A stretch of 64,000 nt of DNA, from positions 1 through 64,000 of the IMG/VR virus record IMGVR_UViG_3300009496_000005; one strand, given 5' to 3'. The DNA comes from a virus. The translations under genes were made by a program, and so were the position numbers. The first letter of the stretch is position 1. Each line of letters starts with the position of its first letter. The notes under the pieces were generated by a model. That model did no database searches. It had not been told where the DNA came from and saw nothing but the letters and a program-made list of their open reading frames with translations. This document shows positions 7,228 through 45,864 of this stretch, piece by piece.

Positions 7228-7256
7228 AAAAAGCACTCCGAAGAGTGCTTTTTTTT
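7228..7256 (+). terminator. intrinsic terminator
   Basis: The hairpin GCACTC-CGAA-GAGTGC with flanking A and T runs ends the NadE operon. The T-run abuts the next late box. Confidence 0.9.
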
Positions 7257-7264
7257 GATAAATA
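7257..7264 (+). promoter_or_regulatory. T4-type late promoter box for the riboswitch transcript
   Basis: GATAAATA begins at the base after the terminator T-run. The predicted transcript starts near 7270, just upstream of the first glutamine aptamer. Confidence 0.7.
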
Positions 7265-7286
7265 TTAATGTAACGCAAGTTACACT

Positions 7287-7344
7287 CGTTCATTCACTCT
7301 AAATGTAGCAGTGAACGGAAGTAGTCAAGAAGACGAAGGAACGC
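7287..7344 (+). promoter_or_regulatory. glutamine riboswitch aptamer 1
   Basis: The stretch carries the conserved pieces of the glnA/Downstream-peptide (L-glutamine) aptamer in order: CGTTCA, a P2 stem TTCACT/AGTGAA, GGAAGTAG, and CGAAGGAACGC. P1 forms between CGTTC (7287-7291) and GAACG (7339-7343). The third stem is weaker than in aptamer 2. Confidence 0.85.
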
Positions 7345-7349
7345 ATCTT

Positions 7350-7415
7350 CGTTCATCCTTAACAGGACGGAAGTAGGTGATAATACCGAAGGAACGCATC
7401 TCATTAAAGGAGATG
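7350..7415 (+). promoter_or_regulatory. glutamine riboswitch aptamer 2 with SD-sequestering hairpin
   Basis: CGTTCATCC and GGACGGAAGTAGG are followed by CCGAAGGAACGC (ending 7397), matching the glutamine aptamer consensus closely. Only 5 nt separate it from aptamer 1. Directly after it, CATCTC (7397-7402) pairs with GAGATG (7410-7415), burying the AAGGAG ribosome-binding site of the ORF at 7420. This suggests translational control. The last aptamer base is shared with the hairpin, so the two structures may compete. Confidence 0.88.
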
Positions 7416-7419
7416 TTAA

Positions 7420-7584
7420 ATGACTAAGTATCAGGAAACAGCACAACTCAAACGTGCTGTAAGAAGAACACTTAAGAATAAAAAAATTGTAGCAAGCCTA
7501 TATCAATTCCCTCACGTTGAAAAACAAAAGAGAAGTGATAGTGAATTGCCACTGTATATAACAGACAATCCGTTTTATCCTTAA
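7420..7584 (+). CDS. 54-aa basic peptide under tandem glutamine riboswitch
   Basis: The ORF encodes MTKYQETAQLKRAVRRTLKN and continues to a 54-aa, Lys/Arg-rich peptide ending in an aromatic/Pro tail. It is the only gene between the riboswitch and a terminator, fitting the 'downstream peptide' arrangement. In cyanobacteria, glutamine riboswitches control gifB, which encodes the small basic glutamine synthetase inactivating factor IF17. A similar role (binding host glutamine synthetase) is an inference from size, charge and context; no sequence identity to IF7/IF17 is claimed. Confidence 0.75.
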   Translation: MTKYQETAQLKRAVRRTLKNKKIVASLYQFPHVEKQKRSDSELPLYITDNPFYP

Positions 7585-7592
7585 GGCAATAA

Positions 7593-7614
7593 AGGGAGCA
7601 TTTGCTCCCTTTTT
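7593..7614. terminator. bidirectional intrinsic terminator
   Basis: AGGGAGCA/TGCTCCCT hairpin with T5 on the plus strand and TTTATT on the minus strand. It serves the 54-aa peptide gene and the convergent 43-aa gene. Confidence 0.85.
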
Positions 7615-7628
7615 ATTAGTATTTTTTA

Positions 7629-7760
7629 CTAGAATGCTTTATTGACAACGTTTTCAAAACGTCCTGCCGTCATTATTTCGTCTAGTTTGTTGAAGTAGTC
7701 AGATGCCATGTCGCGTAATGGACGAGTTAATCTGGCTACTATTCCTAATGGATTCGCCAT
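7629..7760 (-). CDS. 43-aa protein of unknown function
   Basis: This short minus-strand ORF starts MANPLGIVARLTRPL with CAGGAG 6-10 nt upstream and ends in the shared terminator. A late box lies 113 nt upstream on the same strand. The protein has an amphipathic basic N-terminus and no recognised motif. The clear ribosome-binding site, own promoter box and terminator make it a credible gene despite its size. Confidence 0.55.
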   Translation of the reverse strand: MANPLGIVARLTRPLRDMASDYFNKLDEIMTAGRFENVVNKAF

Positions 7761-7872
7761 AATATTCTCCTGTAATGTGGTAACCAATCGTATCTAACTG
7801 TTCTAATTACTTTATCACTAAAGTGAACTGCAATTATATTGCAACAATTATGTTACAATTGTGTTACAGTTT

Positions 7873-7880
7873 TATTTATC
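7873..7880 (-). promoter_or_regulatory. T4-type late promoter box
   Basis: GATAAATA on the minus strand. Downstream lies a leader of about 107 nt with near-repeats of TTGTAACA/TTGCAATA type before the 43-aa gene. Confidence 0.5.
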
Positions 7881-14428: not shown

Positions 14429-16249
14429 TTATGTGATATTATATTTTCCGTATCCGAATCTACGTCTGAAGTATAGTTTTTCTAGATGATCATCTAGTGA
14501 ATGAGATTGGTCGTGTTCAAAGGATACATAAGTTCTACCTTGCCTTACTTGGCCTTCTCGTCCTTTTAGATATTCAAACCAATGTGCATTGTAGCATTTT
14601 TTAAACTGGTAGTCATTTATCTTCTCAGGACTATACATAAAGTCGCATTGTGCTTCTAACAGTTCACTTGGTAAGTCATTGAATGTATCTTTTATAAATG
14701 TTTGTGTTGCTTCCCAATTTTCATGCAACAGCCTATTCAAATACCAAAGCAGAGTATGTCCACTATAAGGACTAGGTTTGCCTTGTGTGTAGTCTCGAAT
14801 AATGCTTTCTACCTTACGCCAAATATCTCCCACTGGTCCTTGATCACTAGCCAAGCAATCAAACAAGCGATCATAAAACTGTCTGTATTGTTCTGTATTA
14901 GATTGATGCGAATACCTAGCAAGTAATTGTGTCCAGCCTCCACAATGAAAGTTAATTATCATTGTTGCATACATCCAACTGTCTATAAAATCTTTGTAAG
15001 GCATTGTCTTTGTGCCAACTACAACTTCTGTTCGTTCTAGTATGCCGTCGTCATCGTCGTCTAAGTCTCCACTAACATATCCTGCTAGTTCTACAGTTTC
15101 AAATTGATATTCTTCTTTATGCTCTGGTGCATTACTTTGTGCATTCTCTAATATTTGATGGAACCATATCTCTATACTGTTATGCTGTCCTATGTCTAAC
15201 ACTTCTGCTAAACCCTTACGCCAACTGTCAGGTGTTTCTAAAGGCAAAGGTAGTATTAGTTCTGTGTATGTTCCCAATCCTTCTGCTTCAATTAAATCAA
15301 ACATATCTTTTAAATGCGACATGTCCATATTCTTTCTTTCTATTGCCTTCAATACATCTGTATCCATGCTTTGAACACTTAGAGTCATTCCTCTATTCAT
15401 GCCATTGCTTGTTAGTTTTTTAACAATTGGTATTACATTTTGTTTAGAGTTCTTATGCCAGTTAGCATTAAATACTTTTGGATAGCCATACTTGTCTTGA
15501 ACCTCTAACATTACATCTACTATCTCTGAATCTCGTTCCGGAAACACACCAAAGTTAGCATCTGCTACAAAGATATATTCTATTTTGTTCTTGCCTAGCC
15601 ATTCTATTTCTTGATATACCTTTGGCACAGGAAACTTTTTAATCTTACTGTAAGTTAAACTACCCCAATCACAAAAACTACATTTAAAAGGACATCCTCT
15701 ATTTGTTTCTAGTGTGGTGCTCCATTTTATATCTGGGTTCTCTTTTATTATATTATCAAAGAATCCATTTATATACGGACTAGGTATATCTAAATCCATA
15801 AGCCTTGTTGCTTCGTATGTTTTTTGTATTGTTCCTGTTTCTTTTAGATCATTAATAAGTTTCTCAAAACTTAATTCTCCTTCACTGACAATCCAACTGT
15901 CTACCCAATTAAATTCTTTTTGCTGTTCTTCTAATCTAAACTCGCTTACTTGTGGTCCGCCAAATACAATAATAGCATCTGGATTGATCTCTTTGATACG
16001 TTTGGATAGTTCTAGGTTGTATTCCCAATTCCACATGTAGCAACTAAACAATACCATGTCGTCATTACGCATACTCTTAGACGCATTGTGAACAGCCTCA
16101 CGCCTAAATACTACTCTATTGACATCAAAGTATCCAGGATTTTTATCTTCAACGAATGTATACACACATGCAATGCTATGTGGTAACCAGTATCCTGAAA
16201 ATATTTTGCCACCCTGTCTAAAGTTTGGCTGGACTAATGATATTTGCAT
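14429..16249 (-). CDS. radical SAM enzyme with N-terminal B12-binding-like domain
   Basis: The 606-aa protein has an N-terminal Rossmann-like region of the cobalamin-binding type (about residues 1-140, including IIVFGGPQVS). A radical SAM core follows, with the cluster motif CPFKCSFC at residues 186-193 (Cys186, 190, 193). The C-terminal 250 residues are unassigned. Such enzymes do radical methylation or rearrangement with S-adenosylmethionine and a [4Fe-4S] cluster. The ATG at 16249 lies 5 nt after a GTTAAATA late box; a second radical SAM gene at 26316 has the same box and spacing. The substrate is unknown. Confidence 0.8.
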   Translation of the reverse strand: MQISLVQPNFRQGGKIFSGYWLPHSIACVYTFVEDKNPGYFDVNRVVFRREAVHNASKSMRNDDMVLFSCYMWNWEYNLELSKRIKEINPDAIIVFGGPQVSEFRLEEQQKEFNWVDSWIVSEGELSFEKLINDLKETGTIQKTYEATRLMDLDIPSPYINGFFDNIIKENPDIKWSTTLETNRGCPFKCSFCDWGSLTYSKIKKFPVPKVYQEIEWLGKNKIEYIFVADANFGVFPERDSEIVDVMLEVQDKYGYPKVFNANWHKNSKQNVIPIVKKLTSNGMNRGMTLSVQSMDTDVLKAIERKNMDMSHLKDMFDLIEAEGLGTYTELILPLPLETPDSWRKGLAEVLDIGQHNSIEIWFHQILENAQSNAPEHKEEYQFETVELAGYVSGDLDDDDDGILERTEVVVGTKTMPYKDFIDSWMYATMIINFHCGGWTQLLARYSHQSNTEQYRQFYDRLFDCLASDQGPVGDIWRKVESIIRDYTQGKPSPYSGHTLLWYLNRLLHENWEATQTFIKDTFNDLPSELLEAQCDFMYSPEKINDYQFKKCYNAHWFEYLKGREGQVRQGRTYVSFEHDQSHSLDDHLEKLYFRRRFGYGKYNIT

Positions 16250-16254
16250 ACTAC

Positions 16255-16262
16255 TATTTAAC
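16255..16262 (-). promoter_or_regulatory. variant late promoter box
   Basis: GTTAAATA on the minus strand, followed by GTAGT and the ATG at 16249. It is identical to the box at 26303 in front of the other radical SAM gene. Confidence 0.55.
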
Positions 16263-16267
16263 AAAAA

Positions 16268-44966: not shown

Positions 44967-45290
44967 TTAATCTATTTGCACTACCTTGATTGCTTCAGCA
45001 GTAGTATAAGGGGATTTGTGTGCCATTGGCTCTTTGGTTTCATCTATGTTAGGCCATATTTCACATGCTTTAGCATTGATATCTATAAATGGCATCTCTT
45101 CATTCGGAACTTCGTCTTCGTGTAGTATTGCTTCTACAGGACATTCAGGCTCACATAGACCACAATCAATACATTCATCCGGATGTATTGCTAACATCTC
45201 AGGTCCTTCATAAAAACAGTCTACTGGGCAAACTGCAACGCATTTAGTATCCTTGCACCCTACACAGGCACTCATTACTACATAGGTCAT
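44967..45290 (-). CDS. fdxA: 7Fe ferredoxin, FdxA type
   Basis: The 107-aa protein matches Azotobacter ferredoxin I-type proteins. All nine conserved cysteines are present (9, 12, 17, 21, 25, 40, 43, 46, 50), giving one [3Fe-4S] and one [4Fe-4S] cluster. [26 protein letters not shown] and EIWPNI are hallmarks. It is a low-potential electron carrier. Its ATG lies one base after the stop of the 2OG oxygenase gene, so both are read from the late box at 45870. It could reduce the phage radical SAM enzymes; this is inference. Confidence 0.93.
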
Positions 45291-45291
45291 A

Positions 45292-45864
45292 TTAATCTTT
45301 TGGTATAGCCATACAATTCATATGTAAGCATATTGTTTCTACAGCACTATTGTTCGGGGTCATACCCCATGGGATGTGAGAAGGAAAACAACAATACTTC
45401 CAAATCTTTGGTTTAATATAGTTAGTTCCTGCTTGTATTTTTATGGGCGAAGAGTGGAGTCGTAGTCCAAAGTTTTCTTGATATACCATAGAACCCTTAT
45501 TGGTTGTTTGCAACCACATGATGCATGTATACCATTTTGTTCTATCTACATGAACAGGATATGTATGTCCAGGATTAATACTAAATAGACTTGGCTCAGT
45601 TAGTTGTATCTGTGCCTTATTTGTATTAGGTATTGCTTTGCGTATCTCATCAACAAAGAGATTGCCTATAAGCATTTGTAGATTCTTTACTACATCTACC
45701 TGTGGCATGTCTTTATTAGTCATCCAACCAAAGTTAGTGTCTAGACAATTACCAGAGTCTTTTGCTTCTAGAATACCTTTTCTAATCTTTGTTCCTACAG
45801 ATCGCTCTATAGGTATCTCTCCCTCAATGCATACATCAGGGAATAGGTTATATGCTTTTGCCAT
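45292..45864 (-). CDS. 2OG-Fe(II) oxygenase-like protein
   Basis: The 190-aa product starts [24 protein letters not shown] pair at 105-107 ([12 protein letters not shown]) and a later His163 (FPSHIPWG) fit the iron triad of 2OG oxygenases. The 2-oxoglutarate Arg is not obvious, so activity is less certain than for the 162-aa protein. It starts 5 nt after a late box with no ribosome-binding site, and is co-transcribed with the ferredoxin gene. Confidence 0.6.

Follow-up and report, generated by a model that had tools for sequence, protein, structure and literature searches.

Tandem glutamine-I aptamers behind a T4-type late box precede a tiny basic peptide gene in a virus and have a close counterpart in SAR86 bacteria

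Glutamine-I aptamers, their occurrence in tandem (PMC2864571, PMC9481103) and their presence in marine phages (PMC9004378) are already known. In Synechocystis, such an aptamer lies in the 5' leader of gifB, a small-protein gene whose product is IF17, and the switch is reported to be ON and to control protein synthesis (PMC6316151). In marine picocyanobacteria, the Downstream-peptide/glutamine-II switches are combined with short DUF4278 peptides (PMC2864571, PMC6316151). A tandem-riboswitch survey of 2022 counted 157 glutamine doublets and 4 triplets; the doublets are of the glutamine-I class, like the pair described here, and stand without gene context in the passage that lists them (PMC9481103). 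The marine T4-like phages Melnitz and Mosig carry RF01739 glutamine riboswitches, and the Melnitz switch was published as controlling tmRNA (PMC9004378); the passages on these switches do not discuss the tiny ORF directly downstream of the aptamer.

We analysed a window of 64 kb, the whole stretch of DNA under study, out of a 77,148-bp virus record (IMG/VR IMGVR_UViG_3300009496_000005). Like the two marine phages, it carries RF01739, but in tandem, whereas Melnitz and Mosig have single aptamers. As with gifB, the 5' leader that contains the aptamers belongs to a gene for a small protein. The gifB gene is cyanobacterial and has an NtcA-controlled promoter, while the viral locus has a phage late promoter, tandem aptamers and a Shine-Dalgarno (SD) hairpin that starts from C60, and its peptide family has no detectable similarity to IF17. 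Compared with the picocyanobacterial Downstream-peptide loci, it contains glutamine-I aptamers and a non-DUF4278 peptide; the DUF4278 peptides of picocyanobacteria do have counterparts under switches in phages and in SAR86/SAR92. The locus is arranged as follows:

About 7228-7256, plus strand: AAAAAGCACTC-CGAA-GAGTGC-T8, read from the sequence as the probable intrinsic terminator of the gene upstream.
7257-7264, plus strand: T4-type late box GATAAATA, identified as a motif.
7270-7283, plus strand: 5' GNRA hairpin GTAAC-GCAA-GTTAC, 3' of the late box, covarying in relatives (GTAAT/ATTAC, GAGTAA/TTACTC).
7285-7347, plus strand: aptamer 1, glutamine-I / glnA (RF01739), 56.9 bits, E 6.7e-10 (Rfam covariance model).
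7348-7400, plus strand: aptamer 2, glutamine-I / glnA (RF01739), 62.1 bits, E 2.6e-11, reaching into the 5' end of the SD hairpin.
7397-7415, plus strand: SD-sequestering hairpin CATCTC-ATTAAAG-GAGATG (7397-7402 with 7410-7415), its first base being the C60 position of aptamer 2.
7409-7412, plus strand: Shine-Dalgarno GGAG, inside the hairpin and before the ATG at 7420.
7420-7584, plus strand: peptide ORF, 54 aa, pI 9.9, supported by relatives and pN/pS.
7591-7612, plus strand: downstream intrinsic terminator AAAGGGAGC-ATTT-GCTCCCTTT, found by the terminator scan.

Both aptamers score above the RF01739 gathering score of 35, and with two complete aptamers of one class the leader has the layout of a tandem riboswitch. 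The earlier note on this DNA had read two glutamine aptamers in series with 5 nt between them. The series was borne out by the covariance model, and the P1 helices (7287-7291/7339-7343 in aptamer 1 and 7350-7354/7392-7396 in aptamer 2) lie 6 nt apart (7344-7349). The same note had proposed a search with two Rfam models, and it turned out that the glnA model recognises both aptamers, while Downstream-peptide (RF01704) stays below threshold in the covariance-model scan of the window. No other Rfam match was returned by cmscan for the 64 kb, and the entire record contains two RF01739 matches, both of them the pair described here. Terminators had been expected on both sides of the unit; the downstream one was found by the scan, whereas the upstream one is visible in the sequence but absent from the scan list. 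A covarying 5' hairpin, often GCAA-looped like that of the window, occurs in 18 distinct viral leaders. A phage-encoded NAD synthetase (PF02540; 5938-6891) is located just upstream of the switch unit. Adjoining the unit at 7629-7880 is a minus-strand ORF of at most 52 aa, for which there is a separate GATAAATA box at 7880 (minus). The phage also encodes a B12-binding radical SAM protein (14429-16264).

With a TATAAATA-like late box upstream, the locus has the form of a T4-type late transcription unit. Elsewhere in the window there are 13 plus-strand [TG]ATAAATA boxes, eight of which (16268, 21682, 28961, 35158, 35670, 36132, 41680 and 49769) stand 26-80 nt before an ORF. In viral tandem loci, TAAATA was found no more than 40 nt upstream of aptamer 1 in 71/71 distinct upstream sequences, and only 11 of 86 distinct bacterial loci had it; the background in random 40-mers is 2.1% for the viral and 4.9% for the bacterial loci (Fisher p 3e-33 for the viral-bacterial contrast, relatedness ignored). 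Thus, a link to late transcription exists for the phage copies but not for those of bacteria, and the claim that the unit has a late box of its own is upheld by GATAAATA at 7257 and by the viral loci as a whole.

The ORF under the switch encodes the peptide MTKYQETAQLKRAVRRTLKNKKIVASLYQFPHVEKQKRSDSELPLYITDNPFYP. An AF2 prediction gives a helix at residues 3-29 (pLDDT about 93 for residues 1-20) and a less certain tail. A peptide search in IMG/VR yielded relatives at 33 loci, and the most conserved part of the family is the C-terminal PxYITDNPFYP, in which its members end. The pooled pN/pS among close relatives is 0.31, the pairs not being independent, and by this comparison of sequences the ORF is under purifying selection. 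In the upstream DNA available for these loci, aptamers precede the ORF in all but one, a truncated locus (L150) that retains only the 3' end of an aptamer. The arrangement is mostly tandem, with a single aptamer in four loci (L139, L140, L141, L149). The peptide matches no Pfam or PHROG family and has no convincing relative among named phages. Near and distant nucleotide searches of the locus against named phages gave nothing useful except one lead in phage P-TIM68, and tblastn with family B (see below) and one relative of the window peptide revealed no convincing homolog in named phages. The small basic peptide foreseen under the switch has held up.

We also assessed how often such a switch is combined with a tiny peptide, and the combination recurs in marine phages and in the bacterial groups that are likely to be their hosts. 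A pattern scan for tandem aptamers returned 115 viral stretches and 96 in bacterial and archaeal genomes. Every viral tandem locus with a readable downstream ORF leads to a peptide of about 30-65 aa, and these peptides fall into several unrelated families; eight viral loci could not be read by the script, most being cut off at the end of the stretch. Assigned by sequence pattern rather than by formal clustering, family A, that of the window, comprises 43 unique viral and 5 bacterial peptides (SAR86 and a gammaproteobacterial MAG), family B (LWxQYC) 11 and 7 (Burkholderiales/Betaproteobacteria), DUF4278 under tandem switches 5 and 8 (SAR86, SAR92 and relatives), and family D 2 and 4 (alphaproteobacteria, SAR116 included). 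Smaller viral families are G, H and I. Two phage peptides passed the Pfam cut-off for DUF4278, and two bacterial ones were just below it. Some bacterial loci have other arrangements. Triple glutamine aptamers occur in SAR86-type or related genomes (L254, L258, L277), one SAR86 tandem (L323) precedes a TonB-dependent-receptor-like ORF and not a peptide, and several alphaproteobacterial loci (L249, L259, L281 and similar ones) have a conserved GGATCTTA...TTTCCATAGCTAAGCATGA leader after the tandem aptamers and no clear short ORF.

The closest bacterial counterpart of the locus was found in SAR86. Two SAR86 contigs (L270, L337) and a gammaproteobacterial one (L278) encode family A peptides of 46 aa, ending in YVTDNPFYP, after tandem aptamers; in all three, the same quinone-oxidoreductase-like gene lies alongside, with further housekeeping genes around it. 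The leaders of the window and of SAR86 contig L337 are identical at 123/133 aligned positions (92%), and the peptides are about 46-48% identical. A protein-profile search of genome contigs that required YITDNPFY gave no match because the SAR86 members read YVTDNPFY. Among 101 sampled genomes of the SAR86 order, family A was present in 5 and RF01739 above the cut-off in 46; the family A alignment used here and in the DUF4278 comparison below includes one inexact row (row 13), and the genome matches were confirmed independently. The presence of family A in only 5 genomes, and the finding that the SAR86 peptide gene is not adjacent to glnA, count against our explanation of the locus. The phage ferredoxin (4Fe-4S; 44967-45290), which together with an adjoining minus-strand ORF occupies 44967-45864, had its best score against SAR86 among 15 genomes. 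The likeness of family A and of the leader, together with the ferredoxin, suggests, without proving it, that the host of the phage is SAR86-like. The phage DNA polymerase is less than 50% identical to those of the closest named phages. As a host marker, nadE was uninformative.

Isolated phages contain similar pairs. In Mosig, a SAR11 phage, the aptamer (92197-92250, minus strand) lies just upstream of Mosig_00116 (L374:526-681), a 51-aa hypothetical protein that shares RPRAxKN...DPxxQxI with viral family H. In the Prochlorococcus phage P-TIM68 (L375:900-1165), an aptamer at threshold (35.4 bits) precedes a 47-aa ORF containing YRGVEYD and YRGLKV, which looks DUF4278-like by eye, and the upstream element CGTTCATCC may be a second, degenerate aptamer. 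In Melnitz, an OM43 phage (MZ577097.1), the aptamer (1484-1532 of L371) is 3' of tmRNA. Behind it come an SD hairpin and a 32-aa ORF that has no annotation, MTLYQQWCYLKAQKEYRRRQKILMYFRIRLKG, with weak likeness to family B (25-38% identity); aptamer, hairpin and ORF together span L371:1484-1653. Since the switch is cis-acting and is positioned 3' of tmRNA and before this ORF, it more likely controls the ORF than tmRNA, contrary to PMC9004378. Apparently, the pairing of a switch with a tiny peptide has been overlooked in isolated phages. In the literature outside most subscription papers, we found no description of the linkage to a late promoter, of the consistent tiny-peptide output, of the SAR86 counterpart or of the Melnitz ORF.

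On balance we favour, as a whole, the explanation that the locus is the phage's copy of a bacterial gene for a glutamine-status peptide, transcribed late and controlled by an ON switch that serves nitrogen tuning. Transcription from a late (gp55-type) promoter would yield an RNA whose leader contains both glutamine-I aptamers and the hairpin that hides the ribosome-binding site, and which encodes a single tiny basic peptide. At low glutamine the hairpin would be closed. Glutamine bound to aptamer 2 would cause the G23-C60 pair to take a base from the foot of the hairpin, weakening it and raising translation, and the second aptamer would make the response steeper. The peptide would be the phage version of a SAR86-type host peptide made under a near-identical switch and would probably tune nitrogen assimilation late in infection. 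A hairpin directly after aptamer 2, hiding the ribosome-binding site, had been noted before and is confirmed: it covers GGAG, and in related viral leaders 189/190 positions are paired in register, compared with 29-57% when the strands are slid. Pairs 1 and 2 are near-invariant (C-G in 37/38 and A-T in 38/38) and pairs 3-5 show compensatory changes; such a conserved hairpin upstream of the gene constitutes an expression platform. Its mean energy of -6.4 kcal/mol drops to -3.8 in magnitude when the C60 pair is left out. The G23-C60 pair is present in the ligand-bound crystal form of the glutamine aptamer (PMC5393176, PMC11477058), and cyanobacterial glutamine-I and -II switches are reported as ON (PMC6316151, PMC6698751). 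The C60/G23 pairing, the hairpin energies and the published ON switches favour translation activated by glutamine. Thermodynamic folding failed to reproduce a simple opening of the SD through withdrawal of C60. When both P1 helices were enforced and C60 was withheld, most of the SD stayed closed (the paired bases had a probability of 0.02-0.04 of being unpaired), and for this reason the ON direction is inferred and not computed. It also counts against our explanation that P1 and the SD hairpin can coexist in the folding model and that, by nearest-neighbour energies, about 11 kcal/mol are needed to force the two P1 helices to form; the unconstrained ensemble contains hardly any of either P1 helix, in a model without tertiary contacts. 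For the leader of the window itself, folding suggested a hairpin between the aptamers, and comparable sequestration above 0.5 was found in only 23/78 viral leaders; this hairpin is thus not a general basis of cooperativity.

The same hairpin that begins immediately 3' of P1 could also act with the opposite sign. Glutamine-bound P1 would stack on it with no nucleotide between, stabilise it and repress the peptide, and the folding model, in which the hairpin stays closed with P1 formed, agrees with this. We regard such repression as unlikely, given that the C60-G23 pair of the bound crystal form is incompatible with C60 as the hairpin foot and that characterised glutamine switches are ON. Far less probable still are decayed or ligand-blind aptamers in a unit that constitutively makes a small peptide for the virion or for host takeover late in infection: the late box would already time expression, but the scores of the two aptamers lie far over the threshold, covariation is seen in the hairpin and diverse contigs keep the tandem layout. 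The target of the peptide concerns a separate question, whose answer is compatible with the remainder of the ON explanation. By analogy, glutamine synthetase (GS) is a plausible leading candidate. Chances are evenly balanced that the target is another one, such as ammonium or glutamine uptake, GOGAT, PII or a late function (lysis timing, translation) that the switch merely times. In line with another target, unrelated peptide families stand under one type of switch, SAR116-type genomes have an ammonium transporter downstream of tandem switches (L248, L268, L341), and family A has no link to IF proteins. The window and SAR86 family A peptides had no Pfam match and did not show the sequence features of IF7/IF17 or DUF4278, and the comparison of the family A and DUF4278 profiles was not significant (hhalign probability 0.7%); YRGVRY in three family A relatives (L132, L185, L203) is a lead only. 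Against another target, and as indirect support for GS, switches of this kind also stand before DUF4278 peptides, both in other phages and in SAR86/SAR92. DUF4278 corresponds to the N-terminal portion of IF17, which IF17 does not need in order to function (PMC6316151), so DUF4278 alone is no proof of inhibition. Among 15 genomes, GlnE (PF03710) was found in two alphaproteobacteria only and was not found in the SAR86 genomes searched, which are partly incomplete. Several SAR86 genomes have a short GS match (about 323-341 aa), which we read as GSII from its sequence, and three SAR86/gammaproteobacterial genomes also have a GS-like protein of 467-471 aa.

It is possible, though we put it forward tentatively, that nitrogen assimilation in marine proteobacteria (SAR86, marine Burkholderiales, SAR116-type and others) is regulated by tiny peptides, a different one in each lineage, which are made under tandem glutamine switches and form a non-homologous counterpart of cyanobacterial IF17. 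Their T4-like phages would carry versions matched to the host and driven by late promoters, so as to set the glutamine metabolism of the host while virions are being made. For SAR86, whose searched genomes have a synthetase of GSII-type look and no GlnE match, the switch-controlled peptide is a testable candidate for the control of glutamine synthesis. The hosts of Mosig and Melnitz are cultured, and therefore the idea can be tested. If the Melnitz switch serves the 32-aa ORF, the published view of tmRNA control would need revising. The locus connects a class of uncharacterised tiny proteins of phages with a defined sensor of a metabolite and with corresponding genes of abundant ocean bacteria, and it suggests what phages might gain from sensing glutamine at a late stage of infection.
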